In this document: positions 30,616-50,833 of the stretch, one piece after another
Numbering within the stretch: the first letter of the stretch is position 1
Layout of the letters: each line of letters starts with the position of its first letter
Assembly (NCBI RefSeq): GCF_017876755.1
Contig: NZ_JAGIOO010000001.1
Location: 1,054,001 to 1,118,000, forward strand
DNA from: Crossiella equi
GTDB taxonomy: Bacteria; Actinomycetota; Actinomycetes; Mycobacteriales; Pseudonocardiaceae
Direction of reading: 5' to 3'
DNA length: 64,000 bases
The notes under the pieces: model-generated
Database searches by the model: none
Told to the model about the DNA's origin: nothing
What the model saw: only the letters and a program-made list of their open reading frames with translations
Position numbers and translations under genes: made by a program

Positions 30616-30621
30616 GGGCAG

Positions 30622-31506: not shown

Positions 31507-31541
31507 GGCGGAGGCAGGGGCTGTCACTCCCCGCCTCCGCC
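31507..31541. terminator. Bidirectional hairpin at the end of the ectC operon
   Basis: GGCGGAGGC-A-GGGG, eight bases, CCCC-GCCTCCGCC: a 13-bp stem with one bulged A between the ends of the convergent cyclase and ectC genes. Confidence 0.7.
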
Positions 31542-31551
31542 TCGTGGCGCT

Positions 31552-31953
31552 TCAGGCCGACTGCATCTCGTTCGGCGCGTAGCTGGACGGGGCGTCCGCG
31601 CTCAGCGTGTGCGCCTCGTGGCCCCGCAGCGGCGGGTTGAACACGCACACCAGGCGCATGCCGTGGTCGGAGCGCAGGATGTGCGGCTCGCCCTGGTCCG
31701 GGCAGTACATGGTGCCGACCGTGATCTCGTGGACCTGGCTGGCGGTGACCACCTGGCCGGAGCCCTCCACGCAGTAGCAGGCCTCCAGGTGGTGGTCGTA
31801 CTGCAGGTGGGCCTCGGCGCCCGGCTGCACGTAGGTGTCGGTCAGGGCGTAGCCCTTGCCATCGGCCTCGATGAGCAGGCGGCGGCTGCGACCGTCGCCC
31901 CAGGCCACGTCGCGGTCGGTGCCGACGATCTCGTTCAGGGTGCGGATCAACAT
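31552..31953 (-). CDS. ectC: L-ectoine synthase EctC
   Basis: A 133-residue single-cupin enzyme. Ectoine synthases cyclise N-gamma-acetyl-2,4-diaminobutyrate to the tetrahydropyrimidine ectoine with loss of water. The expected iron ligands are in place at E57, Y83 and H91, as are Y52 and H55 around the substrate and the C-terminal Glu/His pair of the GxExH segment (GHEAH). Length and numbering match characterised EctC almost residue for residue, so the enzyme looks active. ATG 31953 has AAGGAG upstream. It is the last gene of a leftward operon with EctD, a methyltransferase, a free adenylation domain, a carrier protein and another methyltransferase. No ectA or ectB is present, so its substrate may be made elsewhere or may be a cluster-specific acylated diamine. 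Confidence 0.93.
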   Translation of the reverse strand: MLIRTLNEIVGTDRDVAWGDGRSRRLLIEADGKGYALTDTYVQPGAEAHLQYDHHLEACYCVEGSGQVVTASQVHEITVGTMYCPDQGEPHILRSDHGMRLVCVFNPPLRGHEAHTLSADAPSSYAPNEMQSA

Positions 31954-31980
31954 GGTGGGACTCCTTACGTCTCTACGGGA

Positions 31981-32874
31981 TCAGGCGAGCGGGGTGAAGG
32001 CGCGGTCGGCCAGGTACTCGGGGCGGCGGGCCGGGGCGGCGAACGGTTCCACCAGCGCGTTGTCCACGCTGTTGAAGACCACGAACAGGTTCTGCCGCGG
32101 GTAGGGCGTGATGTTCTCCGCCGAGCCGTGCATGCAGTTGCAGTCGAAGGCCACCGCGGAGCCGGGGGCGCCGAGCACCTGGTGCACACCGCCGTTCTCA
32201 TCGGCGATGCGGCGCAGCAGCTCGCCCTCGGGCACGCCGATCTCCTGCTTGGCCAGCGAGGACTTGTGGTTGTCCGGCGGGGTGGGCGCCGAGCAGGACA
32301 GGAACCACTTGTGCGAGCCCGGGATGATCATCAGCGGACCGTTGTGCGGGTAGTTCTCGGTGAGGCCGATGGAGAAGCTCAGCGCCCGCACGCGCGGCAT
32401 GCCGTCCTCGGCGTGCCAGGTCTCGAAGTCGGAGTGCCAGTAGAAGCCGCTGCCGGTGAAGGCGGGCTTGGCGTTGATGCGGGTCTGGTGGATGTAGACC
32501 TCGGAGCCGAGCAGCTGCCGGGCCACGTCCACCAGGCGCGAGTCCCGGATGATGCGGTTGTAGAGCGGGCTGACCGCGTGCACCTGGAAGATCGAGCGGA
32601 CCTCGTCGGCGGCGGGCTCGATGACGTAGCGCTCGTCGGTGTGCCGCTCGGGCAGCTGGGACAGCCGGTCCAGCTCCTCGCGGCAGGCCTGGACCTCCTC
32701 GGGGGTGAGCAACGCGTCGAAGGTGAGGAAACCGTTGCGCTCGTAGTTGTCCAGCGCCTCGGGGCCCAGTGGGCCGTCCTCCAGGCCGCCGTAGACCACC
32801 GGGTCCTGGCGGCGGCGGATCTCCCCGGGACGGCCGTCCCGGGTGCGGTAGACCTGCACGTCCTGCGTCAGCAC
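31981..32874 (-). CDS. ectD: Ectoine hydroxylase EctD
   Basis: A 297-residue non-heme iron, 2-oxoglutarate-dependent dioxygenase that converts ectoine to 5-hydroxyectoine. The family signature FYWHSDFETWHAEDGMP is intact. The iron triad is H147, D149 and H249, and R260 is placed to bind 2-oxoglutarate; these are one residue off the numbering of characterised EctD. GTG 32874 is the start. It lies 27 bp upstream of ectC and 35 bp downstream of a methyltransferase gene in one operon. In usual ectABCD operons it follows ectC; here ectD precedes ectC and sits among NRPS genes, suggesting it hydroxylates an ectoine-like unit of a natural product, although plain 5-hydroxyectoine synthesis remains possible. 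Confidence 0.93.
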   Translation of the reverse strand: MLTQDVQVYRTRDGRPGEIRRRQDPVVYGGLEDGPLGPEALDNYERNGFLTFDALLTPEEVQACREELDRLSQLPERHTDERYVIEPAADEVRSIFQVHAVSPLYNRIIRDSRLVDVARQLLGSEVYIHQTRINAKPAFTGSGFYWHSDFETWHAEDGMPRVRALSFSIGLTENYPHNGPLMIIPGSHKWFLSCSAPTPPDNHKSSLAKQEIGVPEGELLRRIADENGGVHQVLGAPGSAVAFDCNCMHGSAENITPYPRQNLFVVFNSVDNALVEPFAAPARRPEYLADRAFTPLA

Positions 32875-32909
32875 GTGACATCGTTCCTTTCTGGCGGCGT
32901 GGGCCGGGG

Positions 32910-33653
32910 TCAGCTGAGGGCGTCGGACCAGCTGCGGACGCCGAAGACCCGGTAGCGGTTGAGGGTGCGGGCGGGCGTGGGCAGGCGGCCCGCGCGCTCC
33001 AGCTCGTCGGCGGCGCGGATCACGCCGGGGTACTCCTGGGCGCAGTAGTCGTCGAAGACCACCACGCTGTCCTCGTCCAGGTACGGCTCGATGGCCTCGA
33101 AGTCGGACAGGGTGTTCTCGTAGGTGTGCAGCGCGTCGATGAACAGCAGCCGCACCGGACCGTGCACCCAGTTCCGGCCCGCCTCCGGGGCGTCCGCGCG
33201 CTCGATGTCGACGAGGTCGAGCAGGCCCAGGCGGCGGAGGTTGTGCACCATGAGGTCGTAGGTGGTGGCCTCGGCCTGCGGGTCCTCGGAGTTGATGTCG
33301 CCGGTGCCGCCGCGGTGCGGGTCGATGGCGACCACGCGTCCGGCACCGGAGGCGCGGACGCCCAGGGCCATGATCGCGGTGGAGCGGCCGAGGAAGGAGC
33401 CCACCTCGACGGCCACGCCCTTGCCGGGCGCGTTCTTGGCCAGGGAGTAGAGCACCAGGCTGTCCGCGCGCTCGCGGTTGAAGCCCGCGATCGAGTCCAC
33501 GGCGTCCCAGACGCCGTGCCGGAACTCGGCGGGGCCGCGCAGTTCCAGCAGCGCGGAGTTGACCTCCTTGGCCGCGCGGGTGCCGATGTCCTGCACGGCG
33601 CGGGCGATGGTGCTGGCGTACCAGACGAGGTCCTTGTGCTGTGTGGTGGTCAC
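32910..33653 (-). CDS. Class I SAM-dependent methyltransferase
   Basis: A 247-residue methyltransferase of the Methyltransf_24 type. The SAM-binding glycine loop is VAVEVGSFLGRSTAIMALGV near 75-95, followed by an acidic ribose-binding strand end (VVAIDPH), then LLFIDALHTYE near 170 and VVVFDDY near 195. The last two resemble the metal-binding Asp residues of TylF/MycF-like and catechol-type O-methyltransferases. It should methylate a hydroxyl (or possibly an amine). GTG 33653 overlaps the stop of the adenylation gene by four bases (GTGA) and has GGAG upstream. It lies between the A-domain gene and ectD, so a carrier-bound amino acid or its hydroxylated product is a reasonable substrate. Confidence 0.85.
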   Translation of the reverse strand: MTTTQHKDLVWYASTIARAVQDIGTRAAKEVNSALLELRGPAEFRHGVWDAVDSIAGFNRERADSLVLYSLAKNAPGKGVAVEVGSFLGRSTAIMALGVRASGAGRVVAIDPHRGGTGDINSEDPQAEATTYDLMVHNLRRLGLLDLVDIERADAPEAGRNWVHGPVRLLFIDALHTYENTLSDFEAIEPYLDEDSVVVFDDYCAQEYPGVIRAADELERAGRLPTPARTLNRYRVFGVRSWSDALS

Positions 33654-35197
33654 GTTGTCGCTCCGAAGGTCGGCTGGGTGTGGCGGTGGGTGAGCGCGCG
33701 GCGGTCGACCTTGCCGCTCGGGGTGAGCGGGAAGACGGCCTCGCGCTCGGTGCGGGTGGGGAGCATGTAGGCGGGCAGGCGCGGGGTCAGCCACGCGAGC
33801 ACCTCGTCGTGGCCGGGCTCGGCGCCCTCGGCCGGGACGAGCACGGCGACCAGGTGGCGGTCCTCGCTGCCGCCGACCGCGAGCACCGCGCAGTCGGCGA
33901 GGCCGGGCATCGAGGCCAGGGCCGCCTCGATCTCGCCCAGCTCCACCCGGAACCCGCGCACCTTGACCTGGCTGTCCATGCGCCCCAGGCATTCCAGGTC
34001 GCCGTCGGCGTTGCGCAGGCCGAGGTCGCCGGTGTGGTATGCCCGCACCGACGGATCCAGCGGGTCGGGGCGGAAGCGCTGCGCGGTGGCCTCCGGCAGG
34101 TTCCAGAAGCCGGGCCCCACGCTGTCACCGGACACCACGAGCTCGCCGACCTCCCCGTCCGGCAGCACCCGCCCGTCCGGGCCGAGCACGTGCACGGTGG
34201 TGTTGGCCAGCTCCCGGCCGATGGGCGGCAGCACCGGCCAGCTGTCCACATCGGACGGTAGTCGGTGCGTGGTGGAGATGAAGACCTCCACCGTGCCCCA
34301 GTGGTTGAGCAGCGAGCAGTCCGGCAGCGCGCGGAACAGCGCCCGGATGTGCTCGTTGACCTGGAGCTGCTCCCCGCCGGCGAACACCTCGCGCAGCGGG
34401 TGCGTGGCCGGGCCGACCCCCTCGGCGAAGGTGGCCAGCGCCTGGAGCGTGACGAACGGGATGAACAGGCGGTTGATCCGTTCGGCCGCGATCAGCTCCC
34501 AGAGCAGCTCCGGGTCGTAGCGGACCTCGTCCTCGCAGCAGACCAGCGTGCCGCCCGCGCACAGCGTGGCCAGCACCTCCAGGTAGGAGATGTCGAAGGA
34601 CACCGGGGCGAACTGGAGGGTCCGCGAGCCGGGGCCGCACCTGCTGTCGGCGACCTGCCAGGTGATGACGTTGTCCAGGCCGCCGTGCTCGTACCGCACG
34701 CCCTTGGGCCGCCCGGTCGAACCGGAGGTGTAGGTGATGTAGGCGAGGTCGCCCGGCCCCGGCGTGCCGACCGGCTGGGCCGCCCGCGCGGGGCGGTCCG
34801 GCCAGGCACCGAGCGCGAGCCCGCCCTCGGTGGCCAGCGTGGTCAGCTCACCGAGGCGGCCGAACTCCCCGGCGTGCCCGAGCACCAGCTCCAGCCCGGT
34901 GTCGGCGCGCATGAAGTGCAGGCGGTCGACCGGGTAGGACAGGTCCAGCGGCACGCACACGCTGCCCGCGCGGAGCAGGGCGATGATCGCGACCACCAGG
35001 TCCGTGCCGCGCCGGGCGTGCAGGCCGACCGGGACCCCGAGCCCGGCACCGGCCTGGGCCAGCACCGTCCCGAGGCGTTCGGTGCGCGCCCACAGCTCGC
35101 GGTAGCTCAGCTCGGTGCCCCCGTCCCGGACCGCCGCCGCCTCGGGTGTGGCGGCGACGTGCCCGGCCAGCAGGTCCAGCACGCGCCGGGTGCTCAT
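33650..35197 (-). CDS. Free-standing NRPS adenylation domain
   Basis: A 515-residue amino-acid adenylating enzyme without fused carrier. Core motifs in order: A3 YTSGSTGRPKG near 165, A4 FDISYLE with the Asp that binds the alpha-amino group, a variant A5 NHWGTVE in place of NxYGPTE, A7 YHTGDLG, A8 GRMDSQVKVRGFRVELGEIE, and A10 PLTPSGKVD with the catalytic Lys. It should activate an alpha-amino acid as the adenylate and load the separate carrier protein encoded just upstream, whose stop it overlaps by four bases (ATGA). The unusual A5 (W for Y, V for T) changes specificity-pocket neighbours, so I do not predict the amino acid. Confidence 0.93.
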   Translation of the reverse strand: MSTRRVLDLLAGHVAATPEAAAVRDGGTELSYRELWARTERLGTVLAQAGAGLGVPVGLHARRGTDLVVAIIALLRAGSVCVPLDLSYPVDRLHFMRADTGLELVLGHAGEFGRLGELTTLATEGGLALGAWPDRPARAAQPVGTPGPGDLAYITYTSGSTGRPKGVRYEHGGLDNVITWQVADSRCGPGSRTLQFAPVSFDISYLEVLATLCAGGTLVCCEDEVRYDPELLWELIAAERINRLFIPFVTLQALATFAEGVGPATHPLREVFAGGEQLQVNEHIRALFRALPDCSLLNHWGTVEVFISTTHRLPSDVDSWPVLPPIGRELANTTVHVLGPDGRVLPDGEVGELVVSGDSVGPGFWNLPEATAQRFRPDPLDPSVRAYHTGDLGLRNADGDLECLGRMDSQVKVRGFRVELGEIEAALASMPGLADCAVLAVGGSEDRHLVAVLVPAEGAEPGHDEVLAWLTPRLPAYMLPTRTEREAVFPLTPSGKVDRRALTHRHTQPTFGATT

Positions 35198-35442
35198 GGC
35201 CGGGCTCCCGCGGCCAGGCGGTCGTCGATGGCCTCGGTCAGCTCGGCCACGCTCGGGTGGTCGAAGAGCAGCTTGACTGGCAGCCGGGTGCCGACCGCCG
35301 CGGAGATCGCCTTCATCACGTGCACGGCGCGCAGCGAGTGCCCGCCGACGCGGAAGAAGCTCTCCTCGTCGGTGAAGTCCTCCCGGCCGAGGGCGGCGGC
35401 GAAAGCCGCCCGCACCGAGGCCGGGTCACAGGAATGCTCCAT
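35194..35442 (-). CDS. Free-standing peptidyl carrier protein
   Basis: An 82-residue carrier protein. The phosphopantetheine attachment site is FFRVGGHSLRAVHVM, with the Ser in GGHSL. The length is that of a single carrier domain. ATG 35442 has GGGGA eight bases upstream; the leader GGACCACTGGGGA is shared with two other cluster genes. Its stop overlaps the start of the adenylation gene, its presumed loading partner, so the two make a discrete A/PCP pair that can hold an amino acid for modification by the cluster's methyltransferases or other tailoring enzymes. Confidence 0.9.
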   Translation of the reverse strand: MEHSCDPASVRAAFAAALGREDFTDEESFFRVGGHSLRAVHVMKAISAAVGTRLPVKLLFDHPSVAELTEAIDDRLAAGARP

Positions 35443-35450
35443 CAGTATTT

Positions 35451-35463
35451 CCCCAGTGGTCCC
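35451..35463 (-). promoter_or_regulatory. GGACCACTGGGGA leader motif, first carrier gene
   Basis: On the gene strand GGGACCACTGGGG immediately precedes the start and includes the ribosome binding site. Very similar sequences occur at 36604-36615 before the second carrier gene and at 39765-39776 before the exporter gene. Confidence 0.3.
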
Positions 35464-35482
35464 GCGAATGAGCTCGGTCAGC

Positions 35483-36511
35483 TCATCCGGTGACGGTGAA
35501 TTCCAGCAGCGCCAGTGCTGGGTACTCCAGCTGCTTCGCCGAGTCAAGACGCAGACCGGCTTCGGCGCCGAGTTTCCGGAAGTCGTTCTCGGTGCGCTCC
35601 TTGCCGTCGAGCAGCACCATCATCAACAAATTCGCGTACGCCGCGAACAACCCCTCGCGCTCCTCGTCCAGGAGCCTTTCCACCAATACCACGCGACCGC
35701 CCGGTCCGGCAGCCTCGGCCATACGACGGAGGATCTTCACCCCATTTTTGTCGTTCCAGTTGTGCACGCAGTTGGCGATGAGGTAGAGGTCCGCGCCGGT
35801 GGGCAGCGGATCGAAGAAGCTGCCGCCGACGACCTCGCAGCGGTCGGCCACCCCGGCCTGCGCCAGCACCGGCGGGGCGTCCGCGATGACGGTGTCCAGC
35901 TCGAACAGGGTGGCCCTCAGGTCCGGGTGCGTGCGCAGCAGCTCGGCCACCAGCGCGCCGGTGCCGCCGCCGACGTCGACCACGTGCTTGACCGAGGACC
36001 AGTCATAAGCCCTGGCCACCTCAGGCGCGAAGCCGTTGACGTGCACCGCGAGCGAGCCGTTGAAGGACTCGGCCAGCTCGGCGTCCTCGTCCAGGTCCTG
36101 CCAGAAGCTCTTGCCGTAGACGTCCTCGTAGTTCGGCCCGCCGGTGCGCACGGAGGTGAGCAGCCCGGCCATGGCCGGTTCCATCCGGGCCTCGATGCGG
36201 CGGCCCGGCTGCTCCAGGTCGAGCCAGCGGCGCATGCCCGCCGGGTGCTCCTCGGTGAGCACCTCGCCGACCTCGGTCACCGCGTAGGTGCCCGGTTCGG
36301 GTTCGGTGAACAGACCGATGAGCACGAGGTAGTGCATTGTGCGGCCGAGCGCCTCCGCGTCCGTACCGCTCTTGTCGGCGAGTTCGGTGAGCGTGGTCAC
36401 GCCGGATTTGACGAGATCGGGCAGCCGCAGCGTCGCGGCAACGCGAATGGTCGACGGCGTGAGCATCGACGCCATGCGGACCAAATCGGACAACGGGTCA
36501 ATCGTGGTCAC
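35483..36511 (-). CDS. SAM-dependent O-methyltransferase (Methyltransf_2 type)
   Basis: A 342-residue methyltransferase with an N-terminal helical dimerisation domain (1-110) and a C-terminal Rossmann domain. The SAM loop is VVDVGGGTGALVAELL near 176-190; the catalytic His lies in NCVHNWND near 250, the HxxWxD-like motif of small-molecule O-methyltransferases such as the plant caffeate and bacterial tetracenomycin types. GTG 36511 is chosen because GGGGGA precedes it and it opens the conserved dimer helix. It is the first gene of the leftward operon ending in ectC. It starts from a divergent promoter region shared with the second carrier protein. Confidence 0.9.
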   Translation of the reverse strand: MTTIDPLSDLVRMASMLTPSTIRVAATLRLPDLVKSGVTTLTELADKSGTDAEALGRTMHYLVLIGLFTEPEPGTYAVTEVGEVLTEEHPAGMRRWLDLEQPGRRIEARMEPAMAGLLTSVRTGGPNYEDVYGKSFWQDLDEDAELAESFNGSLAVHVNGFAPEVARAYDWSSVKHVVDVGGGTGALVAELLRTHPDLRATLFELDTVIADAPPVLAQAGVADRCEVVGGSFFDPLPTGADLYLIANCVHNWNDKNGVKILRRMAEAAGPGGRVVLVERLLDEEREGLFAAYANLLMMVLLDGKERTENDFRKLGAEAGLRLDSAKQLEYPALALLEFTVTG

Positions 36512-36567
36512 TTGTCCCCCAGGAGAAGTGTGTGATGGGAAAATGTCGAAACGCGGTATCGCGTGGC

Positions 36568-36598: not shown

Positions 36599-36603
36599 TT
36601 GCA

Positions 36604-36615: not shown

Positions 36616-36623
36616 GAAATCTG

Positions 36624-36872
36624 ATGAACGAGACCGGTTCGCGGGTCAGCCAGAGCGTCGCGGAGGCGGGGCGGCAGGCCTTGGGCACCGACGCCCCGAT
36701 GGCGGGCGCCAACTTCTTCGAGCTGGGTGGTGACTCGCTGGCCGCGGCCAAGATGGCCGACGGGCTGAGCACCGACCTCGGGGTCGAGGTCCCGGCGGAG
36801 CTGATCTTCGACGCGGACGACCTGCAGGACCTGGCGGCCAAGCTGGAGGCCCGCCTGAACGAGCCTGGCTAG
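36624..36872 (+). CDS. Second free-standing carrier protein
   Basis: An 82-residue carrier domain; the attachment Ser is in FFELGGDSLAAAKM, and GGDSL rather than GGHSL suggests a partner different from that of the first carrier. ATG 36624 has GGGGAG upstream. It stands alone on the plus strand and converges on the free condensation-domain gene: the two stops share CTAG, so the genes overlap by four bases. Its likely partners are that condensation domain, the free A domain, or the acyl-CoA synthetase of the rightward operon. Confidence 0.9.
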   Translation: MNETGSRVSQSVAEAGRQALGTDAPMAGANFFELGGDSLAAAKMADGLSTDLGVEVPAELIFDADDLQDLAAKLEARLNEPG

Positions 36873-38212
36873 ACCAGTACCGCGTCGGCGACCGCCGCCG
36901 CCAGGTTGTCGGGTGTGCAGTTCCGCAGTACCGCGGACATCCGGCCGACCAGGCGAGCGGCGGTCGGCGCGTCCACGACCTCCTCGTTGTGGAAGCAGCC
37001 GAGGTAGACCTCGGTGCCGAACCCGACGACGAAGATGAGGTCGTAGGCCTTGTACCGCACCTGCTCGCTGTAGGCGGACAGGTCCACCGGCTCGACCGCC
37101 AGACTGGCCTCGGCCGGGGCCGGGTCCTCGCCGGGCATGACGAACTCGAAGGCCACGTTGAGCGCCCGCCCGCCCGCGCCGGTGCGGATGCGGTGCAGCT
37201 GCTCCCCGGCCCGCTCGTACCCCTGTTCCGCCAGCTCGGCCAGCAGGCGGGTGTAGCTGTAGGGCGGCCGGGTGTGCCGGGCGCTGTCCATTGTGGACTT
37301 CATGGCGCCCCGGGCCAGCTCACCGAGTGCCAGCCCGGCGGGCAGGTCCACCCGGATGTCGGCCAGGCGGTGGAACACCCCGGCCAGCTCGCGGGTGCCG
37401 CGGCCGTCCCGGCCCAGCAGCGCGGTGGTCAGGCGCACCGCGCCGCTGCCGTACTCCGCGCCCACCGCCGCCGCGGCCGCACCGAGCGTGGCGGCGAACG
37501 GGGTGGCCTTGGCCTTGGCGGCGAAGGCCTTTACCGCAGCGGTGGTCTCGCTGTCCAGCCCGGAGTCCAGGCGGGTGAGCAGACCGTCGTTCCGCCGCAC
37601 CGCCGGGTCAACGACGTCCACGGCGGACGCGGTGAACGCGGTGCGCCAGAACGACAGCTGCTCCCCGGTCAGCCGCTCCCCCGCCGCCGCCTGTTCGCTG
37701 ACGTGCCCGGCGAAGCTGCCGGGCACCGGCTCCAGGGCGGGGCCCTCGCCGAGGCGGTGGCGGTAGGCGGTGAACACCTCGGTCAGCACCAGGGCGCTGG
37801 ACCAGCTGTCCGCGGCGATGTCGTGCTCGGCCATCGCCAGCAGGTGGTCGTCCCCGGCCAGCCGGAGCAGCCGCACGCGCAGCGGGCCCTCGGTGGCGAC
37901 CGCGATGTCCTCGCTGACCAGCCGCCAGGCCGCGTCCACGGCCTTCTCGTACTCCTGCGCGGAGAAGCCGTCCAGCACGGTCACCGGGAACTCGTTGACC
38001 GGCGGCGCGATGTGCTGTACCGGCTCGCCCGCGCGGTCGACCCGGATGCGCAGGGCGTCGTGCCGGTTGACCACCTCGGTGACCGAGGCGGTGAACGCGG
38101 CCACGTCCAGCGGGCCGCGCAACCTGCGCACGGTGGTGATGGTGCGGTGCCGGAAGTCCGGTGCGCACATCTGGAAGTACAGCTGCTGTTCCAGGGAGAG
38201 CGGGAGGCTCAT
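36869..38212 (-). CDS. Free-standing NRPS condensation domain with altered active site
   Basis: A 447-residue condensation-domain protein of full family length. It starts with the C1-like SLEQQLYFQM, has the NRHDALRIR segment near 50, and the active-site region AEHDIAADSWS near 135. Aligned with the usual HHxxxDG, the second, catalytic His is Asp here and the final Gly is Ser. The later YSYTRLLAEL and GFGTEVYLG segments are normal. It may have lost amide-forming activity, use another base, or recruit tailoring enzymes to carrier-bound substrates as X domains do. ATG 38212 overlaps the exporter's stop by four bases, so the two are translationally coupled. Confidence 0.85.
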   Translation of the reverse strand: MSLPLSLEQQLYFQMCAPDFRHRTITTVRRLRGPLDVAAFTASVTEVVNRHDALRIRVDRAGEPVQHIAPPVNEFPVTVLDGFSAQEYEKAVDAAWRLVSEDIAVATEGPLRVRLLRLAGDDHLLAMAEHDIAADSWSSALVLTEVFTAYRHRLGEGPALEPVPGSFAGHVSEQAAAGERLTGEQLSFWRTAFTASAVDVVDPAVRRNDGLLTRLDSGLDSETTAAVKAFAAKAKATPFAATLGAAAAAVGAEYGSGAVRLTTALLGRDGRGTRELAGVFHRLADIRVDLPAGLALGELARGAMKSTMDSARHTRPPYSYTRLLAELAEQGYERAGEQLHRIRTGAGGRALNVAFEFVMPGEDPAPAEASLAVEPVDLSAYSEQVRYKAYDLIFVVGFGTEVYLGCFHNEEVVDAPTAARLVGRMSAVLRNCTPDNLAAAVADAVLV

Positions 38213-39726
38213 GCCTGCTCCTCGACGGGTGCGGGTGCGCCGCCCATGGGCTTCTCCTTGACGCAGGCCATGAGCAGCACGGCCACGGCCAGGGCGGGCG
38301 CCAGGTACAGGAAGATCTGGGGCAGCGAGTCCGCGTAGGACTGGGCGACCCCGGCCCGCAGCTCCGGCGGCAGGCCGCGCACGAGCTCCGGGGTGACCGA
38401 GGTGCCCCCGGGCAGCCCGGCGGGCAGGTTCGCCGCCAGCCGCCCGGTGAACACCGCGCCGACCAGCGCCACGCCGAGCGAGGCGCCGACCTCGCGGAAG
38501 TAGGTGTGCGCGGAGGTGGCGGTGCCCAGGTCGGCCTGCGGCACCGAGTTCTGCACCGCGACCACGAGCACCTGCATGGCCAGGCCCATGCCCACCCCGA
38601 CCACGGCGGTGTAGACCGCGCTGAGGTAGAGCGGGGTGGTGCTGCCCATGAGCGACATCAGCACGAACCCGAGCGTGATCACCGCGGTGCCCGCCACCGG
38701 GAACACCTTGTACCGCCCGGTGCGCGCGATCTGCTTGCCGGTCCAGGTGGACACGATGACGAAGGCCACGACCATGGGCAGCATCAGCAGCCCGGACTCG
38801 GTGGCGTTGACGCCGTTGGCCATCTGGAAGAACGTGGGCAGGTAGCTGGCCGCGCTGAACATGGCCGCACCGACGAGCAGGCCGACCAGCGAGGTCAGCA
38901 CGAACACCGGGTCGCGGAACAGGTGCGGCGGGATCACCGGCTCGGCCGCGCGGCGTTCGGCGAGCACGAACAGCACCGCGCACACCACCACACCCGCGGC
39001 GAGGCCGAGGACCACCGGCGAGGTCCACGGGTAACGGGTACCGCCCCAGCTGGAGACCAGCACGATGCCGGTGCTGCCCAGCGCGAGCAGCGCGGTGCCC
39101 GCCCAGTCGAGCTTGAACGCCCGGCCGGTGGCACCCGGCTTCAGGAACGCGGTGACGAAGAAGATGGTCAGCGCGCCGATCGGCAGGTTGACGAAGAAGC
39201 ACCAGCGCCACGACGCGGCGTCGGTGACGATTCCGCCGAGGAACGGTCCGGCGACCGAGGCGACCCCAAATACCACACCGAGGAAGCTCATGTACCGGCC
39301 GCGTTCCCGGGGCGGTACCACATCGGCGATGATCGCCTGCGACAGCACAAAAAGGCCGCCGCCGCCAATGCCCTGGACCGTGCGCGCGACTACCAGACCG
39401 GTGCCGCTCTGGGCAAGCCCGCACAGCAGTGACCCGAGCAGGAAGACCGAGATCGAGACCAGGAATACGTTCCTGCGCCCGGACAGGTCGGACAGCTTGC
39501 CGTAAATGGGCATGCAGATGGTGGAGGCGAGCACGTAGCTCGTGACCACCCAGGGCATGTCGTCGACTTCGCGCAGGTCACCCACGATGGTGGGCAGCGC
39601 GGTGGACACGATGGTCTGGTCGAGCGAGGCCATCAGCATCGCCAGCACCAGGCCGGTGAAGACTATTCGAATCCTCCGGGTATCGGGCTCTTTGTCCGTT
39701 TTGGACTGGGTTGTGCTCACCTGCAT
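38209..39726 (-). CDS. MFS exporter, DHA2 (EmrB/QacA) family
   Basis: A 505-residue drug:H+ antiporter with about 14 transmembrane segments. Typical DHA2 motifs are visible: LDQTIVSTALPTI in helix 1, GKLSDLSGRRNVFL in the loop after helix 2, ARTVQGIGGGGLF in helix 4, and GPFLGGIVTDAASWRWCFFVNLPIG in helix 5. It should export a small hydrophobic or amphipathic compound and is the natural candidate for product efflux and self-protection in this cluster. ATG 39726 (or GTG 39720) is the start. It leads a two-gene operon with the condensation protein and is divergent from the rightward operon across a 254-bp gap. Confidence 0.92.
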   Translation of the reverse strand: MQVSTTQSKTDKEPDTRRIRIVFTGLVLAMLMASLDQTIVSTALPTIVGDLREVDDMPWVVTSYVLASTICMPIYGKLSDLSGRRNVFLVSISVFLLGSLLCGLAQSGTGLVVARTVQGIGGGGLFVLSQAIIADVVPPRERGRYMSFLGVVFGVASVAGPFLGGIVTDAASWRWCFFVNLPIGALTIFFVTAFLKPGATGRAFKLDWAGTALLALGSTGIVLVSSWGGTRYPWTSPVVLGLAAGVVVCAVLFVLAERRAAEPVIPPHLFRDPVFVLTSLVGLLVGAAMFSAASYLPTFFQMANGVNATESGLLMLPMVVAFVIVSTWTGKQIARTGRYKVFPVAGTAVITLGFVLMSLMGSTTPLYLSAVYTAVVGVGMGLAMQVLVVAVQNSVPQADLGTATSAHTYFREVGASLGVALVGAVFTGRLAANLPAGLPGGTSVTPELVRGLPPELRAGVAQSYADSLPQIFLYLAPALAVAVLLMACVKEKPMGGAPAPVEEQA

Positions 39727-39764
39727 ACGTCCTCATCACACGCGAAGCGGTGCGCGCGGGAAAT

Positions 39765-39980: not shown

Positions 39981-41360
39981 ATCAACGAACACACCGGCCT
40001 GCCGCACTCGCGGCAGCCCTACACCTATGCCCGCAGGGAGCTGGTGGAACCGGACTGGCGCCGCTTCCCCGGCTGGCGGGACGTGACCGAGGCGCAGTGG
40101 CGGGACGCACAGTGGCAGCGCTCCCACTGCGTCAAGAACGTGAAGCAGCTGCGCGAGCTCGTGGGCGACTGGCTAACCGAATCCTTCTACGAGGACTTGG
40201 CGGCCGACCAGCAGCACCTGGCCACCATGTCGATGCTGATCCCACCGCAGATGCTCAACACGATGGTGCCCGGAGGGGCGGCCGGACGGGCGGAGTTCAC
40301 CGAGGCCTTCCTGGCCGACCCGGTGCGCCGGTACATGCTGCCGGTGGCCTCCGACCGCGACACCGACTGGCCTTCGCACCCGCACGCCGAGCGTGACTCC
40401 TTGCACGAGGCGGAGATGTGGGTGGTGGAGGGGCTGACGCACCGCTACCCGACGAAGGTGCTGGCGGAGCTGCTGTCCACCTGCCCCCAGTACTGCGGGC
40501 ACTGCACGCGCATGGACCTGGTGGGCAACTCCACACCGACCGTGGCCAAACACCGGCTCGCGCTCAAGCCGGTGGACCGCCAGGACCGCATGCTCGACTA
40601 CCTCCGGCGCACGCCCGGCGTGCGCGATGTGGTGGTCAGCGGCGGGGACGTGGCCAACGTGCCGTGGCCGCAGCTGGAGGCCTTCCTGTTGCGGCTGTTG
40701 GACATCGAGTCCATCCGTGATGTCCGGCTCGCCTCCAAGGCGCTGGCCGGGCTGCCGCAGCACTGGTTGCAGCCCGCGGTGCTGGAGGGTATGACGCGCG
40801 TGGCCGGGCGCGCACGGGCGCGTGGGGTGAACCTGGCCCTGCACACACATGTGAACCACGTGCGGTCGGTGACGCCCCTGGTGGCGGAGGCCGCGCGGGC
40901 GGTGCTCGACGCCGGGGTGCGGGACGTGCGCAACCAGGGCGTCCTGATGCGCGGGGTGAACGCCACCCCGGAGGACTTGCTCGACCTGTGCTTCGCGTTG
41001 CAGGGTGAAGCCGGGGTGCTGCCCTACTACTTCTACCTGTGCGACATGATCCCGAATGCCGAGCACTGGCGGGTCGCGGTGTGGGAGGCGATCGGGCTCC
41101 AGCACGCCATCATGGGCTACCTGCCCGGCTACGCCACCCCGCGCATCGTCTGCGACGTGCCGTACGTGGGCAAACGCTGGGTGGACCAGGTCGCGGAGTA
41201 CGACCGCGAGCTCGGCGTGTCCTACTGGACGAAGAACTACCGCACCGGTCTGGACGGCGACGGGGACGGGGTGCTGGAGCAGCGCCACGTCTACTACGAC
41301 CCGATCGGGACGCTGCCGGAGTCCGGCCGGGCCTGGTGGACAAAGCAGCGGATTTCTTGA
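39981..41360 (+). CDS. KamA-family radical SAM aminomutase-like protein
   Basis: A radical SAM, PLP-type protein of the lysine 2,3-aminomutase superfamily, about 459 residues. The iron-sulfur motif CxxxCxxC is C168, C172 and C175 (STCPQYCGHCTR), followed by SGGDVANV. The C-terminal GYLPGYATPRIVCDVPYVGK matches an actinobacterial KamA subgroup and differs from the PGGGGK segment of true lysine aminomutases, so the substrate may differ. Conserved-looking sequence (PYTYARRELVEPDW) extends upstream of the first GTG at 40044, and the only well-placed Shine-Dalgarno, GAGGGAGGGG at 39966-39975, lies five bases before an ATC codon at 39981. I therefore propose a rare ATC start. Role: alpha-to-beta amino shift giving a beta-amino acid (inferred). 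First gene of the rightward operon. Confidence 0.85.
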   Translation: MNEHTGLPHSRQPYTYARRELVEPDWRRFPGWRDVTEAQWRDAQWQRSHCVKNVKQLRELVGDWLTESFYEDLAADQQHLATMSMLIPPQMLNTMVPGGAAGRAEFTEAFLADPVRRYMLPVASDRDTDWPSHPHAERDSLHEAEMWVVEGLTHRYPTKVLAELLSTCPQYCGHCTRMDLVGNSTPTVAKHRLALKPVDRQDRMLDYLRRTPGVRDVVVSGGDVANVPWPQLEAFLLRLLDIESIRDVRLASKALAGLPQHWLQPAVLEGMTRVAGRARARGVNLALHTHVNHVRSVTPLVAEAARAVLDAGVRDVRNQGVLMRGVNATPEDLLDLCFALQGEAGVLPYYFYLCDMIPNAEHWRVAVWEAIGLQHAIMGYLPGYATPRIVCDVPYVGKRWVDQVAEYDRELGVSYWTKNYRTGLDGDGDGVLEQRHVYYDPIGTLPESGRAWWTKQRIS

Positions 41361-41470
41361 ATATCTCTTTACTGTCGGCCGCAAGAACTTCGATCGGACC
41401 GTCGTTGCGACGGAAGAACCGCGTGCTACGGTGCGATCGGGGAAGCATGAAAAACTGGGGAAGGTTCGAC

Positions 41471-42286
41471 ATGGCTCCGCACGAGAAACGTGTGCTCAAT
41501 CCTGGGGAAAGCAACGCGCAGCTTTCCTACGCGTACAACACGGGCAGCCACTACGAGGGCGTGCTCAACCTGACCGCGGCGCTGGACGCGCTCATCTCCG
41601 AAGACGACGTCCTGCACCCGGAACAGCCTTTCTTCCAGGTCACGCACCTGGTCACCGAGTACTCCTGGGCCCACGTGCACTACGAGCTGCGCCGTGTGAT
41701 CCGGCACCTGGACGAGGGCCGCTACGCCGCCGCCACCCGCCTGGTCGACCGGTCCACCGAGGTCAGCCGCATGGGCAACCACGGCGTGAAGCTGCTGCTG
41801 GACCACCTGCCGCAGCACAGCCTGCTGACCATGCGCAACACGCTGCCGCAGGACGCCACCGGGCTGGACTCGCCGGGGTACCGCAACCTGCGCCGCATCG
41901 CCAAGGTCGTGTGGAAGCACTTCGAGAACGCCATGCTCCGTGAGGGCGTGGACCTGGCCGGGCTGATCCAGATCCAGAACGACACCGCGGCTGGGGAGCC
42001 CGTGTCGCCGCAGGTCGAGGCCCTGGCGCTGGTCCGGGAGGCGCTGCTGCGCCTGGACGCCTGCATGCTGGAGTGGAAGCAGACACACCTGACCATGGTG
42101 TGGTCGCAGCTGGGCGGCCTGCCCAGCCTGCGGGCCAGCGAGAACGGATCCCGCACCGAGGACGACACGCTGCCGGTGAGCCTGGGTGGACGGCCCATCT
42201 CCGGTGTGCAGCACCGCGCGGACAAGACCCTCTTCCCCGCCCTGTGGCGGGCCGCCGAGGACGCGTACCACCGCCTCTCGGTCTGA
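41471..42286 (+). CDS. Tryptophan 2,3-dioxygenase-like heme protein
   Basis: A 271-residue, mostly helical protein of the TDO superfamily. Matches to the family: the opening LSYAYNTGSHYEGVLNL, the distal-side FFQVTHLVTEYSW with H59, LDSPGYRNLRR near 140 (the GFxSxxFR segment of TDO), and KQTHLTMVWSQLG with H206 in the place of the proximal heme ligand. It is shorter than catabolic TDOs. MarE of maremycin biosynthesis is a TDO-like protein that mono-oxygenates beta-methyltryptophan to an oxindole; with the methylation cassette downstream, a similar role on tryptophan or beta-methyltryptophan is the best inference. ATG 41471 has GGAAGG six bases upstream; ATG 41447 is also possible. Confidence 0.8.
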   Translation: MAPHEKRVLNPGESNAQLSYAYNTGSHYEGVLNLTAALDALISEDDVLHPEQPFFQVTHLVTEYSWAHVHYELRRVIRHLDEGRYAAATRLVDRSTEVSRMGNHGVKLLLDHLPQHSLLTMRNTLPQDATGLDSPGYRNLRRIAKVVWKHFENAMLREGVDLAGLIQIQNDTAAGEPVSPQVEALALVREALLRLDACMLEWKQTHLTMVWSQLGGLPSLRASENGSRTEDDTLPVSLGGRPISGVQHRADKTLFPALWRAAEDAYHRLSV

Positions 42287-42457: not shown

Positions 42458-44350
42458 ATGACGCGGCTCATGCCCGTCGCCGACGTGGACGTCGTGCGCG
42501 ATGAGGTCAAGGCGGAGATCGAGGGGCACACCGTCCTGAGCGGGTTCCTGGAGACCGTCGAACGGTTGGGCGACGCGGACTCGATGCTGTGGAAGGACGG
42601 CGACGAGTGGAAGTCGCTGACCTGGAACCAGTACCGCGACCAGGTGCGCGAGATCGCGCTGGGCCTGGAGCTGATCGGCTTCCGCCCCAAGGAGTTCGCG
42701 CTCCTGGTGGCCCGCAACCGGCCCGAGCCGCACATCGCCGACCTGGCCGCCCAGGCCGCGGGCGGCGTGGCCACCTCGGTGCACACCACGCTGTCCCCGG
42801 CCCAGGTCGCCGAGATCGCGGACAACTCCCAGGCCACCGTCGCCTTCGTGGAGAACCGCGAGCTGCTGGCGAAGTTCGAGGAGGTCCGCGACCGCCTGCC
42901 GCACCTGCGCACCGTGGTGCTGCTGACCGGTGAGGTCGCCCCGGAGGAGGCGGGCTGGCTGACCACCTGGGAGCAGCTGCGCTCGCGGGGCGCCGAGCTG
43001 GTGCCGTCCCGGCCGGACTTCTTCACCGAGGCCACCACGCGCCTGACCTCCGACGACCTGGCCACCGTCGTCTACACCTCCGGTACCACCGGCAAGGCCA
43101 AGGGCGTCATGCTCGCCCACCGCAACGTGCGCTGGTCGATCGCGGCCGGGTTCCGCGAGCCGGACGGCAGCAAGCCCGCTGAGCCGGAGCAGGGCACGCT
43201 GCCCACCCAGAACCTCAAGATCATCTCCTACCTGCCGCTGGGCACGGTCGGCGCGCGCATGGTCGACCACTGGGGCCACGTGATCATGGGCGGGGCGGTC
43301 ATCAACTTCTGCCCGGACCCGGCGAAGCTGTTCGAGTACCTGCGCGAGGTGCGGCCCTCGCTGCTGATGGGCGTGCCCGCGATCTTCGAGAAGCTGCATT
43401 CCGAGCTCAACGCGGCCATCGACAACGATCCCCAGCCCGACCGCGCGGCACTGGTCCGCCGATGTCTGGCGGTGGGCAAGCAGCTGGCGCGCTACCAGGA
43501 CCGGGGCGAGGAGGTGCCCGAGGACCTGCGCGGGGCCGCCGAGCAGGTCAAGCCGGTGCTGCGCGCGATCCTGGCCAAGGCCGGGCTGGACGAGTGCCTG
43601 CGCGCGGTCAGCGGCGGGGCGCCGATCGACCCGGAGATCATCGAGTTCTTCCAGTCGCTGGGCCTGTCCATGACGCAGTCCTGGGGCATGACCGAGCTGA
43701 CCACCTCGGTGACCAGCGACGGGCCCAACGGCAGCGTGGGCAGACCGTACCCGGGCGTGGAGATCGGGCTGGCCGACGATGACGAGATCATCATCCGCGG
43801 CGGCATGGTCATGCAGGGCTACTACCGCGATCCCGAGGCCACCGCCGAGGTGCTCTCGCCGGACGGCTGGTTCCGCACCGGGGACATCGGTGCCTACGAC
43901 GAGCAGGGCAGCCTGCGCATCGTGGGGCGCAAGAAGGAGCTGATCATCAACTCGGCGGGCACGAACATCGCGCCGACGAAGATCGAGTTCCTGTTGCAGC
44001 GGCACCAGCTGGTCGGCGCGGCCTGCGCGATCGGCGACCGGCGTCCACACGTGACCGCGCTGCTCACCCTCAACCCCGACCGGGCCGCGGAGTGGGCGGC
44101 CGAACGCGGGCTGGACCCGGATCTGGCCCAGCTGAGCCAGAATCCCGACCTGCTCGCCGAGATCGGCGAGGCGGTGCACAAGGCCAACGGTGAGCTGTCC
44201 AAGGCCGAGCAGGTGCGTGCCTTCCGCGTGCTCCCGGTGGAGTGGTCGGTGGACGGCGGGGAGCTGACCGCGAACTTCAAGAAGCGGCGCAACCCCATCG
44301 CGGAGAAGTACGCGGAGGTCATCGAGCAGCTGTACCGGGACGGGCGATGA
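42458..44350 (+). CDS. Long-chain acyl-CoA synthetase-type AMP-forming ligase
   Basis: A 630-residue ANL-superfamily enzyme of the FadD15/long-chain type rather than an NRPS A domain. Motifs: VVYTSGTTGKAKGVML near 206-221, SWGMTELT near 410, GWFRTGDIG near 470 and the hinge GRKKELIINSAGTNIAP with conserved Lys residues. It would activate a carboxylic acid, probably fatty or aryl, as the adenylate and pass it to CoA or to a carrier protein. ATG 42458 has GGAG seven bases upstream. Its stop overlaps the start of the NRPS-PKS gene by four bases (ATGA), so it probably supplies the acyl starter for that protein's N-terminal condensation domain, suggesting an acylated product. Confidence 0.9.
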   Translation: MTRLMPVADVDVVRDEVKAEIEGHTVLSGFLETVERLGDADSMLWKDGDEWKSLTWNQYRDQVREIALGLELIGFRPKEFALLVARNRPEPHIADLAAQAAGGVATSVHTTLSPAQVAEIADNSQATVAFVENRELLAKFEEVRDRLPHLRTVVLLTGEVAPEEAGWLTTWEQLRSRGAELVPSRPDFFTEATTRLTSDDLATVVYTSGTTGKAKGVMLAHRNVRWSIAAGFREPDGSKPAEPEQGTLPTQNLKIISYLPLGTVGARMVDHWGHVIMGGAVINFCPDPAKLFEYLREVRPSLLMGVPAIFEKLHSELNAAIDNDPQPDRAALVRRCLAVGKQLARYQDRGEEVPEDLRGAAEQVKPVLRAILAKAGLDECLRAVSGGAPIDPEIIEFFQSLGLSMTQSWGMTELTTSVTSDGPNGSVGRPYPGVEIGLADDDEIIIRGGMVMQGYYRDPEATAEVLSPDGWFRTGDIGAYDEQGSLRIVGRKKELIINSAGTNIAPTKIEFLLQRHQLVGAACAIGDRRPHVTALLTLNPDRAAEWAAERGLDPDLAQLSQNPDLLAEIGEAVHKANGELSKAEQVRAFRVLPVEWSVDGGELTANFKKRRNPIAEKYAEVIEQLYRDGR

Positions 44351-47300
44351 CCTCCCGACCGGCCAGTGCCACCCAGCTGGAGATGTGGCTGGCGGTGCAG
44401 GGCGAACCCGAGTCCGGCCGGTACAACGCGAGCATCGACCTGGAGTTCAGCGCACCGCCGGACGTGCCCGCGCTGCGGGCCGCGCTGGCCGACGTGCTGG
44501 CCCGCCACCCGGAGCTGCGCGGCTGCTTCGTGCTGGAGGGCGGCGAGCTGCGCCAGGTGGTGCGGCCCGGGCTGGCCGCGAGCCTGCTGGAGGTCGCGCG
44601 GCCCGGTCCGTACGACCGGGAGGCAGCGCTTGCCTGGGCCCGCGCGGAGGGCGACCGGCCGTTCGACCTGGCCTCCGCGCCGCTGCTGCGGGCGGGCCTG
44701 CTCACCTGTCCGGACGGCGCGCTGCTGGTGCTGACCGTGCACCACATCGTCACCGACACCTGGTCGATGGAGGTGCTGGCCAAGCACCTGCTCACCGCCT
44801 ACCAGGCCCGGCTGGACGGCCAGACCACCGACCTGCCCGGACCGTCCGAAGTGGACGCCGAGGACACGGCCGAGGAGGACCTGGCGCACTGGGCGGAGCT
44901 GGTCGCCGACGGCTGGACCGCGCTGGCGGTGCCCGCCGACCTGGTCCGCCCGGAGTCCGGCGCAGGCGGCGGCGGCACGCTCGTCGCCGAGCTGTCCCCG
45001 GCCGCCCTGACCGGGCTGCGCGAGCTGGCCGAGACCGAACGCGTCTCGGCGGCGACCGTGCTGCTCGCCGGGTGGGGCCTGGTGCTCTCGGCGTGGAGCG
45101 GGGAGCCGGACGGGGTGCTCGGCATGCCGTTCAGCGGCCGCAGCGACCCGCGCCTGGACCACGAGATCGGCCTGCACACCCGTGTGCTGCCGGTGCGCGT
45201 GCGCCTGGACGAGTCCGCGACCTTCCAGGACCTCCTGGACGCCACGCGTGAGCAGGTGCTGGACGGCCTGGAGCACGAGCGCGTCCCGCTGGACCGGCTG
45301 CGCACGGCGCTGGCCCGGCACGGCGCGGACGCCGGGGTCTACCGCGCGGTCTTCGACCACCGCTGGGCCGAACCGGTGTCCTGGACCGTGGCCGGTACAA
45401 CCGTGCGGCTGCTCGACCACGAGGTGGAGGGCGTCAAGTACGACCTCGGCCTGGCGGGCATCGAGGGCCCGGAGTCCTTGCGGCTGCGGGTGGACTACGA
45501 CACCGGGGTCTACCGCGAGAGCACCGTGCGGCTGGTGCTGGACCAGCTGACCGCGCTGCTCACCGCGGCGGTCGCCAACCCGGAGCGGCGCTGCCGCGAC
45601 CTGCTGGCCGGGCTGGCGACCCCGGCCCCGGCACGACCGTCCGAAGAGGACGGGACCGAGGCGTTGCTGCCCGAGCTCGTGCTCGGCCACGCACGGCGTG
45701 ACCCGGCCGCGCTCGCGGTCCGGCACGGCGAGGACGTGCTGACCTACGGCGAGCTGGCCGACCGCGCCGGTGCGCTGGCGAACTGGCTGCGGGCACGTGG
45801 GGCCGGGCCGGAGCGGATCGTCGCGCTGGTGCTGCCGCCCGGGGCGGACACCGTGGTGGCCATGCTCGCGGTGGCCCTCTCCGGTGCGGCCTACCTGCCA
45901 CTGGACCCGGCCTACCCGGCCCACCAGCGCGCACTCGTCCTGGAGGACGCCGCACCGGTGGTCGTGCTCGGCGCGGACGGGTACGCCCTGGCCGACGCGC
46001 TCACCGAGTCCGCCGGGCTGCCGGTCACCCCGCCGGTGGCCGGGATCGGGCCCGGGAGCACGCTCAACGTGCTCTACACCTCCGGGTCCACCGGCAAGCC
46101 CAAGGGCGTGGTGTTGCCGCACATCGGCATCGCCCGGCTGATGGGCTCGCACCGGTTCCTCAAGCTGGCGCACACCGACGTCATCGCCGGGCTGTGCCCG
46201 CTGAACTTCGACGGCGCCACCTTCGAGATCTGGGGCGCGCTGGCCCACGGCGCGGCGCTGCTGGTGCTGGACAAGGACATCGTGCTCAGCCCGGCCGAGC
46301 TGCGGGAGCAGGTGCGCACGCACGGCGTGACCACGCTGGTGATCACCACTCCCCTGCTCAACCGGATCATCGAGGACACCCCGGACCTGCTCCAGTCGCT
46401 GCGCCGGGTGTACTTCGGCGGCGAGCGCATCTCGGTGCCGCACGTGCGGCGCGCGCTGCGCTGGTGCGCCCCCGGCACGCTCGTGCACAGCTACGGGCCG
46501 ACGGAGAACTCGTTCACCTCGACCTGGTGGCCGATCGAGTCGGTGGGCGAACGCGAGCGCACCGTGCCGATCGGGGTGGCCGTGCCGGAGACCGAGCTGC
46601 ACGTGGTCTTCGAGGGCACCACCACGCCCGCCCCGGCCGGGGTGATCGGCGAGCTGCTGCTCGGCGGCCCCGGCCTCGCGCACGGCTACCTCAACGACCC
46701 GGAGCGCACGGCGAAGGTGTTCGTGCCCAACCCGTTCGGGCCCGGGACGCTCTACCGCACCGGCGACCGCGTGCGCTGGACCGCCGAGGGCCTGCTGGAG
46801 TTCGTCAGCCGCGCCGACAACCAGGTCAAGATCCGCAGCCAGCGGGTCGAGCTCGGTGAGGTCGAGTCCGCGCTGCTGGCGCACGAGCTGGTCGAGGCGT
46901 GTTTCGTCACCACCGCGCAGAACCAGCGGGACGAACGGGAGATCGTCGCCTACCTCGTGTGGGCCGGACCGTCCGATGTGGACACCCTGCGGGCGCACCT
47001 GCGCAAGGTGCTGCCCTCCTTCGCGGTGCCCACGCACCTGGTCGGGCTGGACGCGCTGCCGCTCAACCGCAACGGCAAGATCGACCGGCCGCGCCTGCCC
47101 AAGCCCGAGGCGGCCCCGGCCCCGGCCCCGGTCGCCGAGCCGGTGCCCGAGCCCGCGCGGCCGCTGGGTGCCCTGGACCAGGTCCTGGCGGCCTGGCGCG
47201 AGGTGCTCGGGGTGGCCGAGGTGACCGCGCGGGACAGCTTCTTCGACGTCGGCGGCCACTCGCTGCTGGTGGTCAAGCTCCAGGAGGCGCTGCGCGCCCG

Positions 47301-50827: not shown

Positions 50828-50833
50828 GCTGAG

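Follow-up and report, generated by a model that had tools for sequence, protein, structure and literature searches.

An orphan-type ectoine synthase-like enzyme and an ectoine hydroxylase-like enzyme in a maremycin-like gene cluster of Crossiella equi

What purpose do an ectoine synthase (EctC) and an ectoine hydroxylase (EctD) serve when their genes lie not beside ectA and ectB but at the end of an operon of nonribosomal peptide synthetase (NRPS) genes? This question is raised by a stretch of 64,000 nucleotides from the actinomycete Crossiella equi (NCBI RefSeq assembly GCF_017876755.1, contig NZ_JAGIOO010000001.1, positions 1,054,001 to 1,118,000), hereafter referred to as the window. The original prediction for this locus proposed that cyclic amidine formation and hydroxylation were recruited into a natural product, and named as its alternative that canonical ectAB reside elsewhere in the genome. 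The analysis reported here gives good support to placing EctC and EctD within a maremycin-like hybrid NRPS-polyketide synthase (PKS) cluster (31.55-52.99 kb of the window), and their sequences suggest that EctC probably closes, and EctD probably hydroxylates, a cyclic amidine as dedicated enzymes of this one cluster.

The operon and the limits of its cluster

The two genes terminate a six-gene operon on the minus strand, which runs from an O/N-methyltransferase (OMT) through a peptidyl carrier protein (PCP1), an adenylation (A) domain and a PF13578 methyltransferase to EctD and finally EctC:

31552..31953, minus strand: EctC, orphan-type ectoine-synthase-like cupin of 133 amino acids (aa), terminal gene of the operon (PF06339, NF009806)
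31981..32874, minus strand: EctD, Fe(II)/2-oxoglutarate ectoine-hydroxylase-like enzyme of 297 aa (TIGR02408)
32910..33653, minus strand: S-adenosylmethionine (SAM) methyltransferase MT24 (PF13578, 79 bits), whose GTG start overlaps the A-domain stop
33650..35197, minus strand: free adenylation domain A1, pocket DILFFGHISK (TIGR01733, 347 bits)
35194..35442, minus strand: free peptidyl carrier protein PCP1 (PF00550, 52 bits)
35483..36511, minus strand: OMT, first gene of the operon (PF00891, 157 bits)

All six genes exceed their Pfam family cut-offs; EctC reaches 132 bits against PF06339 (cut-off 27) and 141 bits against NF009806 (cut-off 128), and EctD 399 bits against TIGR02408 (cut-off 336.5). 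Stop and start codons overlap at the PCP1/A1 and A1/methyltransferase junctions, while the gaps between the methyltransferase and EctD and between EctD and EctC amount to 35 and 27 nt, respectively, so that co-transcription of the operon appears likely. The genes, coordinates, strand, ectD-ectC order and terminal position given by the original prediction are confirmed.

The extent of the cluster is delimited by comparison with Crossiella sp. S99.2, to which the window aligns with 86-88% nucleotide identity in two segments, 31533-36865 and 36901-52982. Homology stops 19 nt past ectC and, at the other side, near the end of a GNAT acetyltransferase gene, leaving a conserved unit of about 21.4 kb of which ectC is the terminal gene. 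Since the shared block ends so closely behind ectC, both ectC and ectD are assigned to one cluster of about 21 kb. About 7 kb beyond the GNAT gene, window positions 59856-60238 (75%) and 60283-61277 (80%) match the S99.2 sequence just past its ectC end, where an arsenite-transporter-like gene was recognized by eye; hence, the block has a partly shared neighbourhood that is arranged differently in the two strains. For this one genome pair, the ratios of nonsynonymous to synonymous substitution (dN/dS, Nei-Gojobori) of EctC (0.17) and EctD (0.32) fall inside the span of the ten other genes tested (0.11-0.46), and both proteins look to be under purifying selection between the two strains.

Beyond the shared block, a PF04199 "putative cyclase" gene (30516-31499, plus strand) converges on ectC; this family includes kynurenine formamidase. 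Further away, two neighbouring plus-strand genes (24724-26355 and 26390-28009) encode proteins that resemble each other and that, by eye, look secreted and contain repeated blade-like units.

The remainder of the cluster includes a divergent arm on the right (40.0-53.0 kb), which carries the MarE-like and marI-H-G-like genes and which the original prediction did not cover, although it is part of the same cluster:

36618..36872, plus strand: second free carrier protein PCP2 (PF00550, 45 bits), retained in Crossiella sp. S99.2
36869..38197, minus strand: stand-alone condensation (C) domain (PF00668, 100 bits)
38209..39726, minus strand: DHA2-type major facilitator superfamily (MFS) efflux transporter (TIGR00711, 252 bits, cut-off 230)
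40044..41360, plus strand: KamA/lysine-2,3-aminomutase-like radical SAM protein (2a5h, 152 bits; TIGR03820, 160, below cut-off)
41438..42286, plus strand: MarE-type heme oxygenase (8vyy/9ca3, 318 bits)
42458..44350, plus strand: FadD-like acyl-AMP ligase (PF00501, 210 bits)
44350..48660, plus strand: NRPS-PKS protein C-A-PCP-KS (KS, ketosynthase) with A2 pocket DGFVYGSFTK (domain matches, pocket alignment)
48657..49757, plus strand: KS C-terminal linker (PF22621, 72 bits) and partial condensation-like domain (PF00668, 26 bits, below cut-off)
49754..50827, plus strand: MarI-like C-methyltransferase, predicted to act in indolepyruvate beta-methylation (position in the methyltransferase-cupin-aminotransferase cassette; genus g9 homologues)
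50834..51199, plus strand: putative MarH-like cupin epimerase (6j4b, 221 bits; 7eqk, 220 bits)
51196..52248, plus strand: putative MarG-like pyridoxal phosphate-dependent aminotransferase (PF00155, 155 bits; cassette position)
52245..52994, plus strand: GNAT acetyltransferase, final gene of the conserved block (PF13302, 59 bits; 92% in S99.2)

The structures 6j4b and 7eqk are presumably those of MarH and StnK3, respectively. The right arm thus lists a MarE-type oxygenase together with a methyltransferase-cupin-aminotransferase cassette in marI-H-G order, the roles of MarG and MarI being read from position only. MarE makes a 2-oxindole from beta-methyltryptophan. The structures 8vyy and 9ca3 are those of MarE (PMC11904535), the cassette order marI-marH-marG is given in PMC4742848, and the maremycin cluster itself is a hybrid NRPS-PKS with a beta-methyltryptophan cassette (PMC5454204). 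The Crossiella cluster therefore shares with maremycin and FR-900452 (PMC5454204, PMC4611700, PMC11904535) the MarE-type oxygenase, the marI-H-G-like cassette and the hybrid NRPS-PKS organization.

MarE-like proteins occur in 6 of 386 family genomes at E 1e-20, and three maremycin-like stretches (L197, L199 and L201) were recovered from the genomes G081 and G083 of genus g9. Each of these stretches encodes relatives of MarE (57-60%), the OMT (55-56%), MarG (59-62%), MarH (85-89%) and MarI (53-63%, in addition to one copy cut at the stretch end), while two of the three have a free A domain (49-50%) and two of the three the C-A-PCP part (51-52%). EctC, EctD, MT24 and KamA gave no match at E 1e-5 in these stretches of 40, 40 and 30 kb, one of which ends inside MarI and thus covers its cluster only in part. 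Because close relatives of the OMT accompany maremycin-like genes where no EctC or EctD was found, the OMT more likely serves the indole half of the product. In one of these clusters (L199:13126-15472), a solute-binding-protein-like gene and a ThiF-family gene separate the free A domain from the OMT.

A-domain pockets were read by alignment, at what we take to be the PheA code positions and with the final Lys assumed, so that the letters depend on the alignment (one A2 position is V in one reading and I in another). Among the four maremycin-like A2 domains that were read, the pocket DG[FY][LV]YGSFT hardly varies. The free A domain, on the contrary, has DILFFGHIS in the two Crossiella clusters but DVEFVGQI[AV] in two clusters of genus g9; its pocket differs where EctC and EctD are present, and the residue loaded by A1 hence seems to differ between clusters with and without the pair. 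In addition to this pocket, EctC, EctD, MT24 and the KamA-like gene distinguish the Crossiella cluster from the related g9 stretches, the mar cluster itself being compared by description.

EctC and EctD compared with compatible-solute enzymes

A search of the complete C. equi genome, a single contig of 9,440,186 bases, retrieved one PF06339 match, namely the EctC of this operon, and no EctA above the cut-off (best match 23.9 bits, cut-off 120.6). Among 15 matches to the EctB profile, one at 8.67 Mb exceeds the cut-off (564.7 versus 552.2 bits), and the gene of this EctB-type transaminase adjoins NRPS modules. The genome therefore lacks the pair of ectA and ectB that accompanies a compatible-solute EctC, having an EctB-type transaminase but no EctA. 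The absence of ectA and ectB proposed by the original prediction accordingly holds for the locus and, with regard to EctA, for the genome, but is qualified by this transaminase; its alternative of canonical ectAB elsewhere is not supported, given that neither an EctA above the cut-off nor a second EctC was found. That the GNAT protein (52245..52994) is a hidden EctA appears unlikely: its best family is PF13302, and it is not among the seven EctA-profile matches obtained at E 1 in the genome search.

EctD matches above the cut-off number two, in this operon and at 450.7 kb. The second one (G000:C1:450689-451564; L052:10668-11573; 388 bits) has an intact signature and no accompanying ectC; it follows a methyltransferase, two dehydrogenase-like genes, A-PCP, a thioesterase and a copper amine oxidase, and precedes an aldehyde dehydrogenase, so that this EctD, too, has NRPS-like surroundings. 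Of 390 Pseudonocardiaceae genomes, 315 contain an EctC match of canonical or other type. Among the four other Crossiella genomes, however, only that of Crossiella sp. S99.2 contains EctC or EctD.

The phylogenetic position of EctC was examined in a tree of 110 proteins, which has few alignment columns for its number of rows and in which L055, L056 and L085 form long branches. The duplicates L053, L094, L099, L100 and L104, the masked L106 and L147 were left out beforehand, the latter as a copy of L042, which itself stands outside the set. All 27 rows whose fetched stretch contains both ectA and ectB belong to one clade of 36 rows (support 100/97), which we term canonical. The window EctC lies outside of it, in a 6-row actinobacterial clade (98/98) whose other members come from S99.2, Nonomuraea, Micromonospora and two genomes of the family.

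The residues of the active site point in the same direction. According to PMC6344544, the EctC of P. lautus binds its substrate via W21, R25, N38, T40, Y52 and E57, with N38 contacting the substrate carboxylate, and its iron via E57, Y84 and H92. In this numbering, the window EctC keeps the iron ligands as well as S23, R25, T40, Y52 and F106, whereas W21 is replaced by G, with a Trp three positions earlier (W18), and N38 by T. W21 is found in 27/27 ectAB-linked rows, which carry H (22) or N (5) at position 38; the frequent H38 is a disagreement between this alignment and the text of PMC6344544, which counts N38 as conserved. Orphan rows, on the other hand, have W18 in 73 of 74 cases and T, A, C or M at position 38 in all 74, while the iron ligands, S23, R25, T40 and F106 are invariant and Y52 is present in 72. 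A shifted Trp has already been described for some orphan EctCs (PMC6344544). The window protein thus matches the family profiles of a compatible-solute EctC, but neither falls within the ectAB clade nor carries W21 with N or H at position 38; it shows the features of the orphan type, i.e., no ectAB and the shifted Trp. The change at position 38 affects the carboxylate contact and may reflect a substrate that lacks a free carboxylate, for instance a thioester.

EctD presents a different picture. Its signature, FYWHSDFETWHAEDGMP, conforms to the motif FxWHSDFETWHxEDG(M/L)P given in PMC5924519, and all six residues reported to contact hydroxyectoine in the S. alaskensis enzyme (SaEctD; Q127, H144, T149, W150, R280 and L284; PMC6890836) are identical, SaEctD numbering resting on a chain offset of 8 deduced from the iron ligands. 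Nevertheless, the protein is divergent: it is 85% identical to its S99.2 counterpart and at most 57% to others among the matches listed from 390 genomes, and beside the contact Gln it reads HQTRINAKPA versus HQSR-N-[YFL]-[KM]PG in the canonical rows printed. The two Crossiella proteins form a long separate branch, in a tree that warns of long branches meeting. The earlier statement that both enzymes have complete active-site residues therefore remains valid for the signature and contacts of EctD, but not for EctC, where W21 and N38 are replaced; the phylogenetic comparison that had been suggested separates EctC from the ectAB clade and EctD, together with S99.2, on its own branch. In relation to canonical EctABC(D), the locus has in common the EctC and EctD families, the EctC iron ligands and the EctD signature and ligand contacts, and differs by the lack of ectA and ectB alongside, the other EctC clade with W18 and T38, and the NRPS-PKS setting.

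Genomic neighbourhoods of orphan EctCs

The orphan sample comprises the best 80 of at least 582 confirmed relatives, chosen by similarity to the window EctC and therefore not random, and several loci (e.g., those of Kibdelosporangium) are near relatives and not independent. C59 sat in one scan pattern, rendering the clade difference at this residue partly circular; W18 and T38 sat in none. Genes for ectA and ectB were sought over each entire fetched stretch and other neighbours within 4 kb, using probes drawn from the window and from orphan loci, of which the L088 adenylation probe also holds a KS domain. Pfam-checked representatives cover EctC, EctD, A, acyl carrier protein (ACP), acyl-CoA-dehydrogenase-like and TrpD/A/F/C proteins; apart from these and the EctA/EctB-type genes, neighbour labels were assigned by eye, and an "amidase" label was discarded as unreliable because some members look transporter-like.

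No ectA or ectB match was found in the 73 orphan stretches, while both genes accompany 27 of the 36 canonical loci. An adenylation enzyme is encoded at 45/73 orphan loci (46 with the KS-containing probe) versus 2/36 in the canonical clade, and with the window A1 as the only probe the counts are 42/73 and 2/36. Acyl-CoA-dehydrogenase-like genes (36/73), free carriers (31/73) and TrpD-like genes (20/73) are likewise found near orphan EctCs, as compared to 1/36, none and none, respectively, near canonical ones. Pockets were read for 32 free adenylation enzymes (380-620 aa) encoded near orphan EctCs. The sequence is D[LI]LQ-x-T-x-D-S in 26 of them, and DLLHLAIDT, DLFQLAI[ND]T or DLFYIAWSC in the remaining six, all from Pseudomonadota.

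Several arrangements recur. A cassette of adenylation enzyme, free ACP, EctC and acyl-CoA-dehydrogenase-like gene, with some TrpD/A/F/C paralogues, is widespread in Actinomycetota and Pseudomonadota and varies in gene content (L057, L058, L060-L066, L077, L078, L084, L086, L105, L110, L122, L128, L131, L134, L142 and L147). In Rhizobiales (L088, L098, L101, L103, L109 and L114), EctC lies directly upstream of a large adenylation-domain protein of about 1,900-2,600 aa, which in L088 matches the KS probes, and near a possible phosphopantetheinyl transferase recognized by eye. In Planktothricoides (L071:5703-11436), EctC was seen, by eye, among PhyH-like hydroxylase, radical-SAM-like, Rieske-like oxygenase and sulfotransferase-like genes, the PhyH-type protein being a more distant relative of EctD.

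The window locus shares with the orphan EctCs discussed in PMC5924519, PMC6344544 and PMC3979721 the clade, the shifted Trp and the lack of ectAB, but differs in that a signature-bearing ectD adjoins ectC: ectD was absent from all 22 orphan-ectC genomes of PMC3979721, and among the 73 orphan loci an EctD (E 1e-20, 60% coverage) was detected beside that of S99.2 only. Among the titles and abstract beginnings listed from open-licence papers, none assigned EctC to an adenylation/carrier pathway.

Proposed pathway, competing explanations and significance

A pathway may be outlined from homology. In the right arm, the marG-H-I-type cassette would beta-methylate L-tryptophan, the MarE-type enzyme would oxidize the tryptophan-derived residue to a 2-oxindole, and C-A2-PCP-KS would handle the indole-derived residue. 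In the left arm, the free A1 would load a second amino acid onto PCP1, whereupon EctC would form a cyclic amidine by attack of the amine on the side-chain amide; an N-acyl-diamino acid would yield an ectoine-like six-membered ring and a glutamine-type amide a five-membered, iminoproline-like one. EctD would subsequently hydroxylate the ring, whose hydroxyl group the PF13578 methyltransferase may cap, while joining of the indole and amidine halves would fall to the stand-alone C domain. The genes present, the extent of the cluster, the orphan type of EctC, the divergence of EctD despite its intact signature, the lack of EctA and the altered A1 pocket were established by computation; all catalysis, the order of steps, the substrate, its possible attachment to a carrier and the ring size are inferred.

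Amidine formation followed by hydroxylation is the simplest reading, since the catalytic and ligand residues are retained and EctC acts on glutamine as a side activity (PMC5924519). Several findings weigh against it, though. The A1 pocket matched no assignable substrate, and the KamA-like and FadD-like genes are not explained by the proposed pathway. Moreover, 28/73 orphan loci have no adenylation gene within 4 kb, so that carrier-bound cyclization is no clade-wide rule, and 26/73 lack adenylation, carrier and dehydrogenase genes altogether within this distance, which speaks against any simple rule. Among these 26 are L055, L056, L072 and L085, the four members besides S99.2 that share the 6-row clade of the window EctC, L055 having a weak AMP-ligase-like gene about 3-4.6 kb upstream, just below the threshold. 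At L055:8491-10341, an EctC (56%) directly follows a pre-ATP-grasp/PGM1-type ligase, presumably an arrangement reminiscent of pyrrolamide clusters. Pyrrolamides of the anthelvencin/kikumycin type reportedly contain a 5-iminoproline-like cyclic amidine unit and employ stand-alone NRPS domains, and would thus resemble the present cluster in both respects while lacking MarE chemistry; EctC is a candidate maker of that unit, although none of the papers listed in the search contained the names anthelvencin, noformycin or kikumycin.

If cluster membership holds but the chemistry differs, EctC could have turned into a cupin enzyme with a different activity, such as an isomerase, hydrolase or lyase, while EctD could hydroxylate a linear or proline-like carrier-bound amino acid, without any amidine. 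The replaced W21 and N38, the remodelled HQTRINAKPA motif and the description of orphan EctC function as unresolved in PMC5924519 and PMC6344544 are in line with this, but the retained EctC iron ligands, R25, T40, Y52 and F106 and every reported hydroxyectoine contact of EctD are more simply explained by two enzymes adapted to an ectoine-like ligand; we regard the different chemistry as rather unlikely. It is more doubtful still that the pair makes free 5-hydroxyectoine for later incorporation into a peptide, with the transaminase at 8.67 Mb providing diaminobutyrate and the cluster GNAT replacing EctA. Although the EctB-type protein passes its cut-off, a GNAT gene closes the conserved block and EctD retains its contacts, the transaminase gene is more than 7 Mb away beside NRPS modules, the GNAT best matches PF13302 and is not among the EctA-profile matches, and EctC falls outside the ectoine-synthase clade.

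Ordinary compatible-solute enzymes beside unrelated genes are largely refuted despite the high family scores of EctC and EctD, in view of the missing EctA, the single EctC, the three Crossiella genomes other than S99.2 that are devoid of both, the EctC phylogeny and the block that the two strains have in common. The terminal position of ectC would agree with the two genes being relics of a former ect operon that decay at the cluster edge, but this is highly improbable given intact frames, the low dN/dS of both genes and an EctC clade unlike that of ect operons. Recruitment of the pair into a natural product, as originally predicted, is thus backed by the conserved block, by the tree position and residues of EctC, by how far EctD has diverged, by the lack of EctA and by the changed A1 pocket, while the amidine chemistry is the conditional part of that proposal.

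A broader reading is conceivable but tentative: orphan EctCs may constitute a large family of carrier-protein-coupled amidine cyclases, in whose commonest form an adenylation enzyme with the near-fixed pocket DLLQ-x-T-x-D-S would load a single amino acid onto a free ACP, EctC would cyclize it with no need for a free carboxylate, which would account for T in place of N/H38, an acyl-CoA-dehydrogenase-like enzyme would aromatize the ring as in proline-to-pyrrole chemistry, and TrpD/F/C/A paralogues would add a second ring to give an indole-like aza-bicycle. In the Crossiella variant, hydroxylation by EctD would replace desaturation, and canonical ectoine synthase would be a specialized salt-stress branch.

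Ectoine producers are recognized by EctC, which counts as their diagnostic enzyme (PMC5924519), so genomes like that of Crossiella risk being scored as producers. PMC5924519, PMC6344544 and PMC3979721 describe the role of orphan EctCs as unresolved; here, one of them is placed in a delimited cluster that also encodes a hydroxylase, a loading domain and a carrier, making purified-protein tests of substrate and reaction possible. If the proposal is true, the maremycin-like scaffold would contain an uncommon building block, namely a hydroxylated cyclic amidine. Moreover, the link of orphan EctCs to A-domain, ACP and dehydrogenase-like genes suggests many unexplored pathways, and the cluster provides a way to test the function of many orphan EctC relatives.

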